Position numbers and translations under genes: made by a program
Part shown: piece by piece, positions 18,168 through 37,855 of the stretch
How the letters are laid out: every line of letters begins with the position of its first letter
Numbering within the stretch: position 1 is the first letter of the stretch
The notes under the pieces: generated by a model
Database searches by the model: none
What the model was told of the DNA's origin: nothing
Seen by the model: only the letters and a program-made list of their open reading frames with translations
Source: Prochlorococcus sp. AG-347-L02
GTDB taxonomy: Bacteria; Cyanobacteriota; Cyanobacteriia; PCC-6307; Cyanobiaceae
DNA: 64,000 bases
Reading direction: 5' to 3'
Assembly: GCA_003281255.1 (NCBI GenBank)
Contig: QCCL01000004.1
Coordinates: 1 to 64,000 of the forward strand

Positions 18168-19533
18168 TAGTTTACTTAGAGCCCCTAACCAGAGTATTGA
18201 AGAAACTGGTTATGCTTGGTATGTAGGTAACGCCAGATTAATTAATTTATCTGGCCGTTTACTTGGTGCTCATATTGCACACACTGGTCTTATTGTTTTC
18301 TGGGCCGGTGCAATGATGTTATTCGAAGTAAGTCATTTCACATTTGATAAACCAATGTGGGAACAAGGCTTAATTTGTATGCCTCATGTTGCAATGTTTG
18401 GATTTGGAATAGGTCCTGGTGGAGAAGTTACTGATGTATACCCATTCTTTGTGGCTGGTGTGATGCATTTAATCTCTTCTGCAGTCTTAGGATTTGGTGG
18501 TATCTATCATTCCTTAGCAGGTCCAGAAAAACTTGAGCAAGATTTTCCTTTCTTTTCAACAGATTGGAGAGATAAGAATCAAATGACTAATATTTTGGGT
18601 TATCACCTAATAGTATTAGGAGTTGGAGCATTATTTTTCGTTTTTGATTGGATGTTCATCGGAGGCGCTTATGATACATGGGCTCCTGGTGGTGGAGAAG
18701 TTAGGCTAGTCAGCCCTACATTAGATCCAAGAGTAATACTTGGTTACCTATTCAGATCTCCTTGGGGTGGCGCTGGTTCAATAATTGGTGTTAACTCAAT
18801 AGAAGATATTGTTGGTGGTCACGTATATGTTGGAATTACCGCGATAATTGGTGGTCTTTTCCATATCTTTACCAAACCATTTGGATGGGCAAGAAGAGCA
18901 TTCATATGGAACGGTGAAGGTCTACTAAGTTATGCTCTAGGTGGAATTTGTGTAGCAAGTTTTATTGCATCCACATTCATCTGGTTTAATAATACTGCTT
19001 ACCCTTCAGAATTCTATGGCCCAACAAATGCTGAAGCTTCACAGGCTCAAAGCTTTACTTTCCTAGTGAGAGATCAAAGAATTGGAGCTAATGTAGGTTC
19101 AACAATGGGACCAACTGGTCTAGGTAAGTATCTCATGAGATCTCCTACTGGTGAAATTATATTTGGTGGTGAAACAATGAGATTTTGGGACTTCAGAGGT
19201 CCATGGTTAGAGCCTTTAAGAGGTCCTAATGGATTGAGCCTTGAGAAAATCCAAAATGATATTCAGCCTTGGCAGGTAAGAAGAGCAGCTGAATATATGA
19301 CTCATGCTCCTAACGCTTCTATCAACTCTGTTGGTGGAATCATTACAGAGCCTAATGCTGTTAACTTCGTTAATTTAAGACAATGGTTAGCTGCAGCTCA
19401 ATTCTTCCTAGGATGGTTTACATTCATTGGTCATCTTTGGCATGCTGGACGTGCTAGAGCAGCCGCTGCCGGTTTCGAAAAAGGAATCGACAGAAAGAGT
19501 GAACCAGCTCTAGAAATGCCTGATTTAGATTAA
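18151..19533 (+). CDS. psbC: photosystem II CP43 protein (GTG start inside psbD)
   Basis: [48 protein letters not shown] ribosome-binding site about 8 nt upstream of GTG 18151. The listed 18124 start is over-extended. Confidence 0.98.
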
Positions 19534-22868: not shown

Positions 22869-23053
22869 CCTTCACACATATTTAAAGTACGCCATTAAAT
22901 TCTTTTTCGTGGAAGTGTTGAATAGAATGTTACTTAACTATCACATGTGTCAGTTTCTAATTTTATTAATTGATTTCAAATTAAATTTTATTTACTACTA
23001 GAGTATTGTTCCTCATTTGGTATACTTAAACTTACGAATATCTTATAAATAAT

Positions 23054-23935
23054 ATGGTTGTAAAACGACCAAAAGATTTTTCTCAAATGAGTAGTGATAA
23101 ATATATTTATATCATTGCTGAAATTGGTATTAATCATAACGGTTCACTTGATACTGCTAAAGAATTAATTGATGAAGCTTGCGATATTGGATGTGATGCA
23201 GTCAAATTTCAAAAAAGAACTATTGATATTGTTTATTCACAAGATACTTTAAATCAACCAAGAAAAAGTCCTTGGGGGAATACCCAAAGAGAGCAAAAAG
23301 AAGGTTTAGAGTTTTCTATTGATCAATATGATGAAATTAATTCTTACTGCAATTCAAAAAACATAGATTGGTTCGCATCTTCGTGGGATAACGAGAGTCA
23401 AAAATTAATGAGAAAATATAATTTTCCATTTAATAAAATAGCGTCAGCAATGGCTATTAATAAAGAATTTGTTGAATTAGTTGCTTCTGAAAAAAAACCC
23501 ACTTTTGCATCAACAGGCATGACAAATCTAAAAGATATTGATTCTATTATTGCAATTTTCGAAAAATATGAATGCCCCTTAATGTTAATGCATACGGTTA
23601 GTACATATCCATCAGAATTACATCATTTAAATTTGAAATGTATTAATACTCTTCGTGAAAGATATAACTACCCTGTTGGATATAGTGGTCATGAAGCTTC
23701 TGTATCACCCTCAGTTATTGCAGCAACATTAGGTGCATCAGCAATAGAAAGACACATTACACTTGATAGAGCAATGTATGGCAGTGATCAAGCAGCATCT
23801 CTTCAGCCTGAAGGATTTAGACAACTTAATAGGATATTAAGAACGGTGCCTAGCATCTTAGGAGATGGTGAGAAAAGGATCCTAAAAGAGGAAGAATTGA
23901 TTGCTAGTAAATTAAGGTATTGGCTAGATAAATGA
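23054..23935 (+). CDS. NeuB-family N-acetylneuraminate/nonulosonate synthase-like protein, lacking a C-terminal SAF domain
   Basis: IIAEIGINHNGSLDTAKELIDEACDIGCDAVKFQKR, TGMTNLKDI, VGYSGHE, ERHITLDRAMYGSDQAASL; ends at about 293 aa. Confidence 0.93.
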   Translation: MVVKRPKDFSQMSSDKYIYIIAEIGINHNGSLDTAKELIDEACDIGCDAVKFQKRTIDIVYSQDTLNQPRKSPWGNTQREQKEGLEFSIDQYDEINSYCNSKNIDWFASSWDNESQKLMRKYNFPFNKIASAMAINKEFVELVASEKKPTFASTGMTNLKDIDSIIAIFEKYECPLMLMHTVSTYPSELHHLNLKCINTLRERYNYPVGYSGHEASVSPSVIAATLGASAIERHITLDRAMYGSDQAASLQPEGFRQLNRILRTVPSILGDGEKRILKEEELIASKLRYWLDK

Positions 23936-24843
23936 AAACTTACGTTTTTGATATAGACGGTACCATATGTACTAATACAAATGGAAATTATGAAGAGGCT
24001 AAACCATATAAAGAAAGAATTAAATTTGTTAATAAGCTTTTTGATGAAGGGAATAAAATTAAATACTTTACTGCAAGAGGTTCTTCAACAGGAATTAATT
24101 GGTATGAAATAACTAAAAAACAACTTAATTCCTGGCATGCTAAATTCCATGAATTAATAATGCAAAAACCCGAAGGGGATATATATATTGATGACAAAGC
24201 TTTTAACTGCAATAAATGGATTTTTCCTTATTTTGACAGTGAAATCACACAAGAAAGCAATAATCAAGAGTTTATTTTTAGAAGGCCTATTTTTGAACAT
24301 TTGGAGACACTTAATAAATTAATTACTGATGAAGATATTGCTATTAAGTTGAAAAAACTTTGTACCCAAGTAAAAGATACCTTTAAAAATCAAGGTAAAA
24401 TAATATTTGCTGGTAATGGAGGAAGTTTTGCTGATTCTCAACATTTAGCTGCAGAGTTTGTCTGCAAGTTTAATTCTGATAGAGTACCTTTACCTGCCAT
24501 TTCTCTAGGAACAAACAGTAGTAATCTAACCGCTATAGGTAATGATTATGGATATGAATATATTTTTTCAAGAGAGTTAAAAGCTATTGGAACTCAAAAA
24601 GATATTGTGATAGCTTTTTCAACTAGTGGGAATAGTAAAAATATAATTAATCTTATTAATCAGGCAGATGCTTTAACAATTCCTTTTTATATATTTACTG
24701 GTAAAACTGGAGGATTTTTGAAAAAATATGATCAATCATTAATAAAAGTTCCTTCTGAGAATACAGCTATTATTCAACAAATTCATATTATGCTTGGACA
24801 TTTAATATGTACTAATACTGAACAAGATTTTATTAAAAATTAA
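23932..24843 (+). CDS. fusion: N-terminal HAD-type phosphatase plus C-terminal SIS (GmhA/phosphoheptose isomerase-like) domain
   Basis: MKTYVFDIDGTICTNTNGNYEEAKPY...DIYIDDKAF (HAD) then IIFAGNGGSFADSQHLAAEFVCKF...GNDYGYEYIFSREL...AFSTSGNSKNII (SIS). Confidence 0.9.
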   Translation: MKTYVFDIDGTICTNTNGNYEEAKPYKERIKFVNKLFDEGNKIKYFTARGSSTGINWYEITKKQLNSWHAKFHELIMQKPEGDIYIDDKAFNCNKWIFPYFDSEITQESNNQEFIFRRPIFEHLETLNKLITDEDIAIKLKKLCTQVKDTFKNQGKIIFAGNGGSFADSQHLAAEFVCKFNSDRVPLPAISLGTNSSNLTAIGNDYGYEYIFSRELKAIGTQKDIVIAFSTSGNSKNIINLINQADALTIPFYIFTGKTGGFLKKYDQSLIKVPSENTAIIQQIHIMLGHLICTNTEQDFIKN

Positions 24844-24847
24844 ATAT

Positions 24848-25681
24848 TTACCAAATTGACCTACCTCCATCCATTACTAAATTGTGACCATTCATATAAG
24901 AGGAAGCATCGGAACATAAAAATTGAACAGCAGCTCTATATTCATCTTTTCTAGCCATTCTTCCAAGGGGTATTAATGATGAAATTTTTTGTAAAAATTC
25001 TTCAGGCTGATCATTAAAAACACCACCAGGTGAAAGAGAATTACACCTAATATTTTTTCCAATCCAGTAAGTAGCAAGATATCGCGTTAATCCAATTAAT
25101 CCAGATTTGATAACTGAATAGGTTATAGGTTTTACTGGCTGCTTTTCATCACTTAAGCCTTCTTTTTTGTAAAGTCTTTGATCAGGAGCAATTACTGATA
25201 AGTCTGATGCAATATTTAAGATGCAGCCTCCCCCAGACGAATTTGCCATCGTAGTACCAAAAACTTGACTACAAAGAAATGCTCCAGTCAAGCCTACTGA
25301 TATCTCTAAATTCCATTTTTCTAAAGAAAAGTTTTCTAACCTAGAGGAGGATTCTAGTTGATTATTTTTTTCAAATTTAGGATTTAACGCTGCATTATTA
25401 ATGAGTATATCTAAATTAATATTTTCCTTAATTAATAGATCATTCAAATCAACTATTGATTTTTTTGAACATACATTTAATTCATGTATGAAAATTTTTG
25501 ATTTTGAGAATTTTTTCTTTAAATGATTTTGAACTTCATTCAATTTTTTTGAATCAATATCTGTTAAAACTAAATTACAATTGCATTCAAGCAACGCAGT
25601 AGCATGTTCTATACCTAATAAACCTGCAGCGCCAGTAATCAATGCTGTCTTATTATCTAATTTAAAAGATCCACTTAGCAC
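24848..25681 (-). CDS. short-chain dehydrogenase/reductase (PtmA-like)
   Basis: ALITGAAGLLGIEHATALLE, ILINNAALNP, YSVIKSGLIGLTRYLATYW. Confidence 0.87.
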   Translation of the reverse strand: MLSGSFKLDNKTALITGAAGLLGIEHATALLECNCNLVLTDIDSKKLNEVQNHLKKKFSKSKIFIHELNVCSKKSIVDLNDLLIKENINLDILINNAALNPKFEKNNQLESSSRLENFSLEKWNLEISVGLTGAFLCSQVFGTTMANSSGGGCILNIASDLSVIAPDQRLYKKEGLSDEKQPVKPITYSVIKSGLIGLTRYLATYWIGKNIRCNSLSPGGVFNDQPEEFLQKISSLIPLGRMARKDEYRAAVQFLCSDASSYMNGHNLVMDGGRSIW

Positions 25682-25789
25682 TCTAATAATTAATAATTCA
25701 AATAATTATATCCTATTCCAATATTTCTCCATTTAATTCATTGTCTTAATCATGGTAGGGTTATTTTAAACTTAATAAAATATTTTTAA

Positions 25790-26497
25790 ATGGAAGATTC
25801 AAATAATTTAAATATAGTGGGAATCATTCCAGCTAGGGGAGGCTCAAAAGGTATACCAAATAAAAACATCATAGATATTTGTGGTCACCCACTAATAAGT
25901 TGGTCAATAAATCAATCAATATCAGCTAATTCAATAACATCAACTTGGGTAACTTCTGATGATATTAAAATATTAGATATTTCAAAGCAATATGGTGCAA
26001 ATACTATTAAAAGACCTAAGAGTATTTCATCAGACAATTGTTCATCAGAATCAGCTTGGATTCATGCTCTAGAGCATATTAATTCGCTTGATATCAAACC
26101 TGATCTTGTTGTAGGTATGCAATGTACTTCCCCTATTAGAGAATCTCATGATTTAGATCAAGCAATTAATTATTTTTTAAAAAACAAATATGATTCTCTT
26201 CTGAGTACAGTTCAGGTTGAAGATTATTTTACATGGGAACTTAATAAAGATTCAATTTCTTTGCCTTTAAATCATGATGTAAATAAAAGAAAGCCTAGAC
26301 AAAAAATAAAAAAAACTTTTTTAGAAAATGGTTCATTTTATATATTTAAACCTGATTTGATAAAAAAAAGTAGAAATAGATTAATTGGTAAAATTGGTAT
26401 GTATGTGATGGCCAAGCATAAGGCATTTCAAATTGATAACAGGGAGGATATCAAGATTTGTTCAGCCATTATTAAAGAATACGGGATTACTCAATGA
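25790..26497 (+). CDS. acylneuraminate (CMP-sugar) cytidylyltransferase, NeuA-like
   Basis: GIIPARGGSKGIPNKNIIDICGHPLISWSI, QCTSPIRESHDLDQAI. Confidence 0.93.
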   Translation: MEDSNNLNIVGIIPARGGSKGIPNKNIIDICGHPLISWSINQSISANSITSTWVTSDDIKILDISKQYGANTIKRPKSISSDNCSSESAWIHALEHINSLDIKPDLVVGMQCTSPIRESHDLDQAINYFLKNKYDSLLSTVQVEDYFTWELNKDSISLPLNHDVNKRKPRQKIKKTFLENGSFYIFKPDLIKKSRNRLIGKIGMYVMAKHKAFQIDNREDIKICSAIIKEYGITQ

Positions 26498-27252
26498 CTT
26501 TTTTATCTAAAAATTTATTCAATATAGAAAATAATAATGTAATAATCACTGGTACATCAAGAGGTATAGGCCAAACTTTAGCGAAAGGTTTTCTTGACTC
26601 AGGAGCTAATGTATTTGGACTATCAAGAACTAATTCTGAATTACTAAAAAAGTATCCAAGATTTAAACATTTAGAAATTGATTTAATGGATAAAAATAAA
26701 ATTTCAGATTTAATAAATGATATTGGGAATAAAACACAAAATATAAATACTTTGATTAATTGTGCGGGTGTTTCTGAACCAATGGAAGAGTATGATCTGA
26801 ATAGAAATTCATTCAAAAATACTTTAGATATAAATTTGATTTCAGTTTTTTATTTGAGTAATGAAGTTGTCAAATTTATGAAAAAGGAAAAATACCCATC
26901 AATAATTAATGTCACAAGTATTGGAAGTTCTTTAGGATTCCCTTCTAATCCAGCTTATATATCATCAAAAGCTGCCTTGTCTGGACTTACAAGATCATTA
27001 GCAATTGATTTTTCAAAATATCAAGTAAGAGTAAATAATTTAGTTCCAGGATATTTTCTTACTGAAATGACAAGAAAAAGTTATGAGGACGAAAACAAAA
27101 GACAAGCTAGATCTTCACGTACAGTTTTGTCTAGATGGGGAGATCCTAAAGAATTAATTGGACCCGCAATATTTCTTGCTTCTGAGGCAAGTTCATATAT
27201 GACAGGAATAGATCTTATAGTAGATGGTGGTTGGAGTATTAAAGGATTATGA
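26494..27252 (+). CDS. short-chain dehydrogenase/reductase
   Basis: VIITGTSRGIGQTLAKGFLDSGANV, YISSKAALSGLTRSLAIDFSKYQVRVNNLVPGYF. Confidence 0.9.
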   Translation: MTFLSKNLFNIENNNVIITGTSRGIGQTLAKGFLDSGANVFGLSRTNSELLKKYPRFKHLEIDLMDKNKISDLINDIGNKTQNINTLINCAGVSEPMEEYDLNRNSFKNTLDINLISVFYLSNEVVKFMKKEKYPSIINVTSIGSSLGFPSNPAYISSKAALSGLTRSLAIDFSKYQVRVNNLVPGYFLTEMTRKSYEDENKRQARSSRTVLSRWGDPKELIGPAIFLASEASSYMTGIDLIVDGGWSIKGL

Positions 27253-28076
27253 ATAAAATCGGATTTATGCAAGGAAGATTATCAAACTTGGTCAATAATC
27301 AAATCCAAGCATTCCCTTTTGAAGATTGGACATATGAATTTGAACTAGCAAAAAAAATAGGATTCGATTGCATGGAATGGACATTGGATTATCCTAATTT
27401 GCATAGTAACCCTTTATTGATTCCTGAAAAAAAGAAAGAAATAGAATTACTCTCTAAATCTAACAATATTGAAATACAATCTATAACTTTAGATTGTTGC
27501 ATGCAAAGACCATTTTGGAAGGAGCGAGATACTGAGATAAGAAACAAATTGATTGAAGATTTTAAATTAATTATAAATTCTTCAATAATAAATGGAATTA
27601 AATTACTTGTTTTACCTTTAGTAGATAATGGTTCAATAAATAATTTACAAGATGGAAAATTATTGATAAAAATTTTAAATTCCTTAGAGTTAGATCTTAA
27701 AAAAAATAATATTATGATTGCATTTGAGTCTGATTATGCTCCATCAAATCTTTTAGATTTTATTAATCAATTTGATAAAATTTCATATGGGATAAATTAT
27801 GACATTGGAAATAGTGCATCATTGGGATTTGATACGGAAAAGGAGTTAGATCTTTATGGCGATAGGATTATAAATGTTCATGTTAAAGATAGAGTTTTAA
27901 ATGGAAACACAGTAAGACTTGGTAAAGGTAATGCTGATTTCGAAAAAGTTTTTCAAGGTCTAAGTTATATTAATTATCAAGAAAACTTTATTTTGCAAAC
28001 AGCAAGATCAATTGATAACAATCATTTTGGAGAATTAGAAATTAATTATAATTTTCTAAAAAAATATATTTTTTAA
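27249..28076 (+). CDS. sugar phosphate isomerase/epimerase-like TIM-barrel protein
   Basis: IGFMQGRLSN, FELAKKIGFDCMEWTLDYP, INYDIGNSASLGFD, INVHVKDRV. Confidence 0.83.
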   Translation: MNKIGFMQGRLSNLVNNQIQAFPFEDWTYEFELAKKIGFDCMEWTLDYPNLHSNPLLIPEKKKEIELLSKSNNIEIQSITLDCCMQRPFWKERDTEIRNKLIEDFKLIINSSIINGIKLLVLPLVDNGSINNLQDGKLLIKILNSLELDLKKNNIMIAFESDYAPSNLLDFINQFDKISYGINYDIGNSASLGFDTEKELDLYGDRIINVHVKDRVLNGNTVRLGKGNADFEKVFQGLSYINYQENFILQTARSIDNNHFGELEINYNFLKKYIF

Positions 28077-28088
28077 GATTTTCACATT

Positions 28089-28847
28089 ATGAGTTTTAAA
28101 CTAGAAGGTAAAAAAGCTTTTATAACAGGTTCAACATATGGGATAGGACTCTCAATATTAAAAAAATTGAAGGATTATGGTTGTGATGTTGCTTTGAATT
28201 CAAGATCTAGAAAATCTATTGAAGACGCAAAAGAGATTTTAGGAAATAATATTTATGGGATTACTGGAGATATGTCAAAAAAAGATAATGCCAAAAAAGC
28301 AATAAATGAATTTATTTATAAATATGGTTCTCTTGATATTTTAATTTGCAATGTGGGAAGTGGTAGATCTGCTAATCCTTTAGAAGAAACCCCTTTGGAT
28401 TGGGAAGAATCAATATCTAAAAATCTCATGACGGCAATTAATCCAATATCAGAAGCTTTTGATTTTTTAGCAAAATCCAAAGGATCAATCGTATGTATTT
28501 CATCGATATGTAGCCAAAAAATGATTGAAGGTGCTCCTTTAACTTATTCTTCGGCTAAAGCATCACTTAATAGATACGTCAAAAATTCCTCTTATTATTT
28601 TGCAAAAAATAAAATTAGAATAAATGCAGTATCTCCAGGCAATGTTTATTTTCGAGGTTCAATTTGGGAAAAGAAATTAGAAAATAATCAAAAATCAGTA
28701 GAAGTTATGCTTAAAGAAAAGGTACCATTAAATAAATTTGTTGCGCCTGAAGATGTCGCAGAAGCAGTTGCATTTTTGGCTTCACCTTTATCAATTTCAA
28801 CAACAGGTCAAATTCTCACAGTTGATGCTGGACAAATTATTTTATAG
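28089..28847 (+). CDS. short-chain dehydrogenase/reductase
   Basis: AFITGSTYGIGLSILKKLKDYGCDVALNSRS, YSSAKASLNRYVKN, RINAVSPGNV. Confidence 0.9.
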   Translation: MSFKLEGKKAFITGSTYGIGLSILKKLKDYGCDVALNSRSRKSIEDAKEILGNNIYGITGDMSKKDNAKKAINEFIYKYGSLDILICNVGSGRSANPLEETPLDWEESISKNLMTAINPISEAFDFLAKSKGSIVCISSICSQKMIEGAPLTYSSAKASLNRYVKNSSYYFAKNKIRINAVSPGNVYFRGSIWEKKLENNQKSVEVMLKEKVPLNKFVAPEDVAEAVAFLASPLSISTTGQILTVDAGQIIL

Positions 28848-29000
28848 TAAAAAGTGGAAAAAATTATCTTATTCATTTGATATTGTTAGCTGGATAAAAA
28901 GAAATTAAAAATAGCCTAAAAAACATTATTTTCTTTATTTAAAGTAACTTTTGATAGTTTATTAATTCTTTTTAATAAAGAAACTTCCTCAAATAAATAA

Positions 29001-29252
29001 AAATCTTTTGATAAAAGTTGATGCAATTGGTGATTTTTTTATTAAGTTACCTTTTGTTAAATCATTTTGAAAAATAATTCTAATAAACCGCCAATACTTA
29101 TATGCAATAAAGTTGTTCAAGATGTTGCTGAAAGATTAAATCTTTTTGATTTTATAATTATTGTTCCAAAAGGAGATGAAAACTTGATAACCATAAGTAA
29201 TCAAATGTCTATTCCTGAGAGTTTGAGACTTTTAAAAAAAGTAAAAAGAAGA
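29001..29252 (+). pseudogene. glycosyltransferase family 9 (heptosyltransferase-like) N-terminal remnant, frameshifted and 3' truncated
   Basis: NLLIKVDAIGDFFIKLPFVKSF* in one frame (stop 29068-29070) continues as KPPILICNKVVQDVAERLNLFDFIIIVPKG...SLRLLKKVKR in another; ends against the tRNA-Ser 3' end. Confidence 0.72.
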
Positions 29253-29255
29253 AAA

Positions 29256-29340
29256 CGGAGAGGGTGGGATTCGAACCCACGAATAGTTTCCTATTAAATG
29301 ATTTCGAGTCATTCGCTTTCGACCACTCAGCCACCTCTCC
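29256..29340 (-). tRNA. tRNA-Ser (anticodon CGA)
   Basis: GGAGAGGTGGCTGAGTGGTCGAAAGCGAATGACTCGAAATCATT...variable arm...CGTGGGTTCGAATCCCACCCTCTCCG folds as a class II tRNA. Confidence 0.97.
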
Positions 29341-29402
29341 GCCTGTTTATAAGTATGCACGTAATAAACAGAAAATTATGAACTATATAATTATCTTAAT
29401 TT

Positions 29403-36796: not shown

Positions 36797-37855
36797 TTAG
36801 TTTTGAGTAATTTTTGTATTTTCAATATTGTCAAATGCCTGACCAATTTTCTTAAAGTCAAATCCCATTGCTCTTAGTGCGTGCCAAAGATGTCCTTGTA
36901 AGAAAAAGAAACCCAAATAAAAATGAGTATTAGCAAGCCAAGCTCTTGAGCTATATGCTCCTGAACCTAAATCTACTGTATCAGTAAAATAAGGGGCAAA
37001 CTCAAATTGAAGCTTTAAGGGTTCTCCATATAGATCAACTGGATATATGGTTGTATTTGAAGCACACCAAAAAGCAGCGACAAAAGCCATATAAGAAACA
37101 CCAACAACTGAGTATGACAAAATTGCCTCAGCGCCAAGTAATCCTTTTCCTTTAAATTCTGTATATTCTCCAAATTGTTTAGTACAAATATGGAAAACAC
37201 CTCCAATTATTTCTAGGAAAGCTAGGAAAGCATGTCCTCCCATAACGTCTTCAAGACTATCTATTTTTAAAAAATCAAATTGATGATTCCAGATAGCGGC
37301 AATATCTAAATTGTAAATAACTTGTCTTGTAGAACCTATTGCTGGGTCGTAAATTCCATGAATACGAGCCCATTCAACGAACATAATTGCTCCAAGCCCA
37401 AGAAAGATTAGATGATGACCAAGAATAAAAGTTAATTTATCTGGGTCATCCCATTCGAAATCAAATTTTTGTGGCTTACTATTTTCTGGATAGTCTCCAA
37501 GATCACCTGCAAATTTATTGGAATGTAATAATCCCCCAGCACCCAATACTGCTGAGAAAATTAGATGTAATGTGCAAATTACAACAATTCCATATGGTTC
37601 CGTAATAACACCATTTTCAATGCCACCAATTCCAATACCCGCGAGGTGAGGCAAAACAATTGCTTTCTGTGCACCCATTGGGATACTGGCGTCGTAACGA
37701 GCCAATTCAAATAATCCAAAAGCTCCTGCCCAGAACATCATTAGGCCTGCATGGGCAGCATGAGCAGCTATGAATTTACCTGAACGGCCAACAACACCAG
37801 AATTTCCTGCGTACCAGTCATAGGTGACATCAGATTTTCCGTAAGTTTGTAACAC
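36797..37855 (-). CDS. chlorophyll-binding antenna protein, Pcb/IsiA (CP43') family
   Basis: TYDWYAGNSGVVGRSGKFIAAHAAHAGLMMFWAGAFGLFELARYD, GHAFLAFLEIIGGVFHICTKQFGEYTEFKGKGLLGAEAILSYS; no large lumenal loop E. Confidence 0.93.
   Translation of the reverse strand: MLQTYGKSDVTYDWYAGNSGVVGRSGKFIAAHAAHAGLMMFWAGAFGLFELARYDASIPMGAQKAIVLPHLAGIGIGGIENGVITEPYGIVVICTLHLIFSAVLGAGGLLHSNKFAGDLGDYPENSKPQKFDFEWDDPDKLTFILGHHLIFLGLGAIMFVEWARIHGIYDPAIGSTRQVIYNLDIAAIWNHQFDFLKIDSLEDVMGGHAFLAFLEIIGGVFHICTKQFGEYTEFKGKGLLGAEAILSYSVVGVSYMAFVAAFWCASNTTIYPVDLYGEPLKLQFEFAPYFTDTVDLGSGAYSSRAWLANTHFYLGFFFLQGHLWHALRAMGFDFKKIGQAFDNIENTKITQN

Follow-up and report, generated by a model that had tools for sequence, protein, structure and literature searches.

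A SAF-less NeuB gene cluster with a GmhA-type isomerase in Prochlorococcus: a candidate amino-free route to a CMP-activated ulosonic acid

Two described routes to activated 3-deoxy-2-ulosonic acids stand closest to the locus considered here: the pathway to 3-deoxy-D-manno-oct-2-ulosonic acid (Kdo), run by KdsD, KdsA, KdsC and KdsB, and the KDN-9-phosphate pathway (KDN, 3-deoxy-D-glycero-D-galacto-non-2-ulosonic acid), which in Bacteroides thetaiotaomicron uses a synthase, a phosphatase (PDB 3e81/3e8m) and a cytidine monophosphate (CMP)-KDN synthetase (cited in PMC6200933). Here we analyze a cluster of seven genes in a 64,000-nucleotide stretch of Prochlorococcus sp. AG-347-L02 (contig QCCL01000004.1, positions 1 to 64,000; the window) that encodes a NeuB-type condensing enzyme, a phosphatase-isomerase (HAD-SIS) fusion, a CMP-sugar synthetase, three short-chain dehydrogenases (SDRs) and a TIM barrel. 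All seven open reading frames proposed in a first-pass annotation are intact and correctly placed, and Pfam and NCBIfam profiles bear out the families it had assigned to them. With a probability of roughly 0.4, we favor the reading that the cluster is a self-contained, amino-free route to a CMP-3-deoxy-2-ulosonic acid that follows the logic of the Kdo and KDN-9-phosphate pathways and is fed by a heptose; production of a CMP-ulosonate of some kind by a route that bypasses NeuC chemistry is highly probable.

The first gene, neuB (23054–23935, forward strand; Pfam NeuB 219 bits, E 8e-65), is the only one of its kind in the genome and encodes a phosphoenolpyruvate (PEP)-condensing enzyme of 293 residues without the C-terminal SAF domain, a point absent from the earlier annotation (there is no Pfam SAF match, whereas the domain is detected in a comparison NeuB of 353 residues, L080). 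Its scores against the curated nonulosonic acid (NulO) synthase models fall far under their cut-offs (228 bits vs 400 for TIGR03569, which aligns over model positions 2–270 of 329, and 179 vs 340 for TIGR03586). Across 200 Prochlorococcus genomes NeuB scores are bimodal, with 12 proteins at 432–493 bits in frames of 277–304 residues and the rest at or below 256 bits, and among solved structures profile comparison puts 6ncs (290 residues; annotation, sialic acid synthetase), PseI 8h2c and SpsE 1vli nearest. Of the named contigs, one from Prochlorococcus carries the closest relative of this NeuB, which agrees, like the 1.53-Mb genome size and the cyanobacterial RNA families IsrR and Cyano-1, with a Prochlorococcus host. 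By sequence, SAF-less NeuB is thus a separate, discrete and uncharacterized family, whose 79 members measure 274–311 residues.

Alignment of these members indicates that the PEP- and metal-binding residues of the catalytic domain are kept in the window enzyme: the equivalents of Neisseria NeuB E25, K53, Q55, K129, S132, Y186, S213, H215, H236 and D247 are invariant in all 79. Position 248 is likewise Q in every member, the window included, and the equivalent of E134 is replaced, by M in 62 of the 79 (as in the window) and by S in 11. In Neisseria NeuB, Arg314 of the SAF domain contacts the N-acetyl group of N-acetylmannosamine. The loss of both SAF and E134 would therefore fit an acceptor that carries no acetamido group.

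The adjoining open reading frame (23932–24843, forward; Pfam SIS_2, with a weak EcbF/BcbF HAD N-terminus) joins two domains. Its C-terminal part (24268–24843, forward; PDB 2x3y, E 3e-43) is a GmhA-type SIS isomerase, the AlphaFold2 model of which superimposes on GmhA 2xbl with a TM-score (TMt) of 0.94 and a root-mean-square deviation of 1.6 Å (0.71–0.76 for KdsD SIS domains), and which keeps all the active-site residues of GmhA (N52, S55, H61, E65, D94, S119, T120, S121, S124, Q172 and H180 in E. coli numbering). The N-terminal part (23932–24261, forward; PDB 9iqw, E 2e-7) is a BcbF/EcbF-like HAD phosphatase that curated models match weakly (EcbF/BcbF, 24 bits) and that falls in a clear family, roughly 105 residues long, with DxD, T and K..DD motifs; it is 53–58% identical to stand-alone HADs of that size in the SAF-less neuB loci L033, L034 and L060. 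Both fused domains appear to be under purifying selection, with a dN/dS between the window and a second genome, G131, of 0.11 for SIS and 0.27 for HAD. Three gene pairs (neuB and the fusion, the CMP-transferase and SDR2, SDR2 and the TIM barrel) share 4 nt where the stop codon of the first meets the start codon of the second, which suggests translational coupling.

The pairing of SIS with neuB is far commoner in the SAF-less family: within 3 kb of neuB in Prochlorococcus, a GmhA-type SIS occurs in 9 of 12 SAF-less loci and in 1 of 105 canonical ones (Fisher p = 3e-10). Two unrelated HAD families are fused to SIS beside neuB, one BcbF-like (HADB-SIS; the window and G131) and one KdsC-like (HADK-SIS; nine loci). 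On the NeuB tree the pairing is scattered (20 changes, at least 15 of them forced by supported branches), and the neuB-linked SIS domains do not form a single clade in a poorly resolved SIS tree, which together argue for repeated recruitment. A NeuB-specific SIS clade, which would imply an altered substrate, was sought and not found in that tree at its weak resolution, and none of the residues checked separates neuB-linked from heptose-linked SIS domains. We lean, by a small measure, toward a SIS domain that isomerizes sedoheptulose-7-phosphate and feeds NeuB.

The rest of the genome (a 1.53-Mb assembly, 92% complete) leaves the product of such an isomerase few other destinations. Absence of NeuC, claimed by the first-pass annotation from the cluster, holds genome-wide: no NeuC/LegG-type Epimerase_2 is found in this 92% complete genome, while 11 of 14 control genomes are positive. 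No KdsA is found in the genome either, the only DAHP_synth_1 match being a 355-residue AroG-type 3-deoxy-D-arabino-heptulosonate-7-phosphate synthase, and the search for HldE in the genome gave a best score of 22.6 bits, to a sequence with internal stops. ADP-heptose is consequently not an alternative outlet here. The PseF/NeuA-like CTP_transf_3 enzyme of the cluster (25790–26497, forward; Pfam CTP_transf_3 87.7 bits) is the only clear CMP-sugar synthetase encoded. With HldE, KdsA, NeuC and a second clear CMP-sugar synthetase all missing, no other use for the SIS product is apparent.

Family assignments, active-site conservation, gene context, the association of SIS with neuB, purifying selection and the absence of NeuC, KdsA and HldE from the assembly, all computed here, are the basis of the scheme that we infer, in which the substrate, the order of the steps, the chain length and every tailoring reaction are predictions. 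The SIS domain would convert sedoheptulose-7-phosphate, an intermediate of the Calvin cycle and the pentose-phosphate pathway, into D-glycero-D-manno-heptose-7-phosphate, and the SAF-less NeuB would condense this aldose phosphate with PEP. The HAD domain would then remove the phosphate and the CTP_transf_3 enzyme would make the CMP-sugar, with the TIM barrel and SDR1/SDR3 (oxidation, epimerization or isomerization at a keto carbon, reduction) and SDR2 adjusting stereochemistry or oxidation state either ahead of activation or following it. By carbon count (7+3) the product would be a ten-carbon 3-deoxy-dec-2-ulosonic acid. We regard such a C10 product as tentative, and its extension to a large family in bacteria and marine phages, all making the ten-carbon acid from sedoheptulose-7-phosphate and PEP, as more tentative still.

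KdsC-type enzymes act on ulosonate phosphates. Since HADs of this type fill the phosphatase slot in relatives of the cluster, the expected order is isomerase, NeuB, phosphatase and CMP-transferase. The first-pass annotation had placed dephosphorylation before condensation, which is the less likely order, as that slot is usually taken in relatives by a HAD resembling KdsC or KDN-9-phosphate phosphatase, which is also found fused to the CMP-transferase. Its broader suggestion of an amino-free, heptose-derived NeuB/CMP route fares better: a NeuC-less route with a GmhA-like isomerase is supported, and a heptose is the substrate we favor.

A view of the cluster as unusual, or as restricted to the window, is not supported by the comparison, with related sets present in many phyla and in marine viral contigs. 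A scan of a genome collection returned 573 relatives, the best 80 loci of which, a sample biased toward window-like sequences, were analyzed; composition was counted within eight genes, with local profiles, for 80 cellular SAF-less neuB loci from this collection and from Prochlorococcus. A CMP-transferase lies near neuB in 49 of the 80, a HAD phosphatase also in 49 (KdsC-like in 43, BcbF-like in 7, both in 1), a SIS domain in 35 from across phyla, a TIM barrel in 32 and a PtmA-like SDR in 31. Of the 32 loci with a TIM barrel, 27 also have the PtmA-like SDR, and SDR3 or a Gfo/Idh/MocA oxidoreductase generally accompanies the pair (22). Recurrence of the enzyme set in distant lineages rules out a singleton or an artefact. 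A Rhodospirillaceae locus (L063) has KdsC-like HAD, neuB, TIM, CMP-transferase, SDR2, SDR3 and PtmA-like SDR, the same set as in the window with the KdsC-like HAD replacing the HAD-SIS fusion, and a SAR116 locus (L074) has SIS, neuB and the same five tailoring and activation genes, with no HAD recognized. Elsewhere a class III aminotransferase (with a glyoxalase-fold protein and a methyltransferase), a class IV aminotransferase or a thiamine pyrophosphate enzyme is swapped in, so that tailoring varies around a core. The phosphatases also change partners: the KdsC-like HAD is fused to the CMP-transferase in five loci and to SIS in nine, and the BcbF-like HAD to SIS (the window and G131), to a methyltransferase or to the CMP-transferase. 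A separate observation concerns Chloroflexus, in which one array (L110, 4946–10568) holds two SAF-less neuB genes, a CMP-transferase–HAD fusion, TIM, Gfo/Idh/MocA, a PtmA-like SDR and SIS.

Several observations weigh against the heptose-fed, ten-carbon route. The window SIS scores 161 bits against a TIGR00441 cut-off of 209 (a GmhB-linked Prochlorococcus SIS, L006, is likewise under it at 168), and the SIS tree is weakly resolved. In over half of the SAF-less neuB loci, the eight genes to either side include no SIS; a GmhA-family match is present elsewhere in 34 of 39 SIS-less genomes (24 at 170 bits or more) and in none of the other five, mostly metagenome-assembled genomes, counts that come with no background rate. 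Decaulosonic acid did not appear in the literature searched, in which Prochlorococcus nonulosonate, SAF-less NeuB, KDN-9-phosphate synthase and decaulosonic acid led to no assigned product, and no glycosyltransferase for the product was found. To the same side belong the limits of the G131 genome, considered below, and the KDN made by a Serratia enzyme.

This enzyme bears on the strongest alternative, a nine-carbon route of the KDN type, in which NeuB would condense PEP with mannose-6-phosphate (from central metabolism, or made by SIS from fructose-6-phosphate), the HAD would dephosphorylate the product, and CMP-KDN or an epimer made by the TIM barrel and the SDRs would result. We consider it unlikely but serious. 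The KdsC-like HAD that occupies the phosphatase slot of most relatives resembles 3mmz and 3e81, and its second-best solved relative is 3e81, known as the B. thetaiotaomicron KDN-9-phosphate phosphatase; such HADs adjoin the synthase in many relatives, whereas that of the window is BcbF-like. The many loci without SIS are also readily accommodated. In Serratia, a NeuB that carries a fused COG1082 TIM barrel gives KDN and N-acetylneuraminic acid (Neu5Ac) at about 20:1 (PMC9000132), and Prochlorococcus encodes NeuB–AP_endonuc_2 fusions in other clusters, so that a KDN-like C9 product stays a live rival. However, both the fold and the residues of the SIS domain are those of GmhA, the G131 SIS stands with HldE and GmhB, a mannose-6-phosphate substrate would not explain why a GmhA-type SIS has repeatedly been recruited and fused here, and the Serratia NeuB is not shown to be of the SAF-less family. 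As to architecture, Prochlorococcus NeuB proteins of 631–769 residues fused to an AP_endonuc_2 TIM barrel (L041 4503–6809, L034 14373–16265) share the arrangement described for the KDN-making Serratia NeuB, and a Lachnospiraceae NeuB (L099 1946–3466) carries a fused cupin that weakly matches D-lyxose isomerase.

A second alternative, less probable again, is that HAD-SIS is a separate heptose module, a remnant of ADP-heptose synthesis that merely lies beside neuB, with NeuB, the CMP-transferase, the TIM barrel and the SDRs using another aldose. G131 speaks for it. There, a fusion 90% identical to that of the window stands beside intact HldE and GmhB, with a family 9 glycosyltransferase (GT9, the heptosyltransferase family) between the fusion and HldE, while several stops make SDR1 a pseudogene; no neuB match was found, in a genome about 67% complete whose contig ends just past the fusion, so that the absence of neuB is not proven. 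The window in turn retains, downstream of SDR3, a degraded N-terminal remnant of a GT9 heptosyltransferase-like gene (28920–29165, forward; 82 residues with internal stops) that is 62% identical (E 7e-24) to the G131 gene (L032 16169–17338; Pfam Glyco_transf_9) and attests to a shared ancestral heptose island. Because G131 keeps HldE and GmhB beside a pseudogenized SDR1 and the window keeps the GT9 remnant, the two loci appear to have decayed reciprocally from one island, with a single HAD-SIS upstream of both HldE and NeuB. Against a mere neighbor, the window genome has no HldE, yet it retains an undamaged fusion that shares 4 nt with neuB, and HAD and/or SIS independently adjoin SAF-less neuB in other phyla without HldE. 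The same genome also serves the heptose-fed route: the fusion is the only SIS/GmhA found in G131, and its position by HldE and GmhB without neuB supports the predicted sedoheptulose-7-phosphate isomerase function.

A standard amino-NulO pathway (legionaminic, pseudaminic or neuraminic) with its early enzymes elsewhere or absent from the assembly is very improbable: the CMP-transferase is nearest to PseF among curated models (104 bits, under the cut-off), SDR1 resembles the PtmA of CMP-legionaminic acid clusters (PMC4481668) and one strong DegT aminotransferase is encoded elsewhere, but NeuB lacks SAF and E134 and lies far under both synthase cut-offs, SDR1 reaches 110 bits against a PtmA cut-off (NF050062) of 350, and the absence of any NeuC/LegG-type Epimerase_2 contradicts the pathway unless NeuC lies in the 8% of the genome that is missing. 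The Neu5Ac, legionaminic and pseudaminic pathways were accordingly rejected on the missing NeuC and SAF, and so was the Kdo pathway, with neither KdsA nor a KdsD-type SIS present. A GT29 sialyltransferase was also sought; the genome has none, a negative that carries no information because the control genomes were likewise without a match.

The tailoring genes surround the CMP-transferase. SDR1 (24848–25681, reverse strand; Pfam adh_short/adh_short_C2), PtmA-like and convergent to the other cluster genes, is mostly 43–61% identical to the SDRs that close a TIM–SDR3/GFO–PtmA triad in many neuB loci. SDR2 (26494–27252, forward; adh_short/adh_short_C2) is KduD-like and follows the CMP-transferase in L063, L074 and L086 as well, and SDR3 (28089–28847, forward; adh_short/adh_short_C2) has a Gfo/Idh/MocA oxidoreductase in its place in other loci. 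Between them lies a putative UlaE-like TIM-barrel keto-sugar epimerase or isomerase (27249–28076, forward; Pfam AP_endonuc_2; UlaE 3cqh, E 3e-25; AlphaFold2 pLDDT 96, TM-score 0.85 to UlaE 3cqi). Metal ligands E160, D185 and H211 of this barrel do not vary (33 of 33), and the fourth position, Q250, is Q in 25 and E in 8, which departs from the E/D/H/E tetrad of UlaE. Two-base epimerases have a second acid/base Glu where Q prevails here, which casts doubt on simple 3-epimerization; these residues would better suit an isomerase with one catalytic base, or a lyase that takes its keto intermediate from SDR1/SDR3.

Beside a tRNA gene, the cluster occupies a site of exchangeable cargo, since the same junction is nearly empty or holds other genes in the relatives checked. 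The variable site (22963–29254) extends from the Cyano-1 small RNA (sRNA) side of a conserved block to the 3' end of tRNA-Ser(CGA) (29255–29341, reverse). It is nearly empty in two relatives (166 bp in G005; in G004 the tRNA lies within tens of bases of a ferredoxin gene) and carries other cargo of 1.7–6.3 kb in five (G001, G003, G007, G009 and G002); the right flank of G010 was not reached in this comparison. The G+C content of the cluster is slightly lower than the window average (28.8% vs 31.7%). No direct repeat of the tRNA end of useful length was found at the left border, and no integrase was seen within the cluster. Further away, two Rfam matches to IsrR, the isiA antisense RNA (18565–18748, reverse, over a CP43/PsbC-like gene, and 37282–37453, forward), may reflect coding homology of the isiA/pcb/psbC family instead of real sRNAs.

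The SAF-less family is also common in IMG/VR contigs (552 stretches), the best 80 of which have a CMP-transferase in 63, a BcbF-like HAD in 18, a KdsC-like HAD in none and SIS in 3. In Kyanoviridae virus AG-345-L05 (L252 6361–10145) SAF-less neuB overlaps a BcbF-like HAD, with a PtmA-like SDR and psbA nearby, and viral contigs L143–L219 and L252, their IMG/VR origin taken as labeled, carry SAF-less neuB with CMP-transferase, BcbF-like HAD, TIM and PtmA-like genes. Cyanophage proteins of about 103–116 residues named 'phosphoheptose isomerase' match the HAD phosphatase domain only and are too short for SIS (Synechococcus phage S-CAM3, L273 8995–9315; S-SM2, L274 9001–9312 and 10642–10971; Sf-CH8, L275 9001–9351; S-T4, L276 7983–8330); the label was probably carried over from HAD-SIS fusions. 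If the heptose-fed route is correct, abundant marine bacteria (Prochlorococcus, Pelagibacter, SAR86 and SAR116) and marine phages have a large unnamed branch of NeuB that makes amino-free acidic ulosonic acids, probably drawing on Calvin/pentose-phosphate intermediates. These sugars, possibly an undescribed acidic surface sugar among them, would be candidate cell-surface or virion glycans at the phage–host interface, and annotators could tell the SAF-less family from sialic acid synthase, its default name.

Set against known systems, the cluster shares with the Neu5Ac, legionaminic and pseudaminic pathways (NeuB-SAF with NeuC or PseG) the NeuB fold, the PEP and metal residues and the CMP-transferase family, but has no SAF, NeuC, dedicated aminotransferase or acetyltransferase. 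Like the ptm loci of Campylobacter and Plesiomonas (CMP-legionaminic acid; PtmA, PtmF; PMC4481668), it has a PtmA-like SDR near NeuB and a CMP-transferase, and its relatives a Gfo/Idh/MocA-type oxidoreductase; unlike them, it has an SDR1 far under the PtmA cut-off and no LegB, LegC, LegH, LegG or PtmE. Serratia marcescens UMH9 neuAB likewise combines NeuB with a COG1082 TIM barrel and a CMP-transferase and has non-amino KDN as main product, whereas, as far as the accessible text of that report goes (PMC9000132), NeuB and the TIM barrel there form a single protein, a SIS-HAD fusion is not mentioned and NeuB is not shown to be SAF-less. The SIS domain has the fold and all the catalytic and phosphate-binding residues of GmhA, the sedoheptulose-7-phosphate isomerase (PMC5387315), but is fused to a HAD and partnered with neuB, not with HldE. 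With the KDN-9-phosphate pathway the cluster has in common NeuB-type condensation of an aldose phosphate with PEP, a KdsC-like HAD (in its relatives), CMP activation and the lack of an amino sugar; it differs in the GmhA-type SIS fused to the phosphatase, in a HAD of another family and in the added TIM and SDR genes. The Kdo pathway offers the same order of SIS isomerase, PEP condensation on an aldose phosphate, HAD phosphatase and CMP transfer, with the difference that NeuB replaces KdsA and a GmhA-type SIS the KdsD type. The cluster is thus predicted to represent a new variant of the Kdo/KDN-type pathway, the product of which would be a C10 ulosonic acid.

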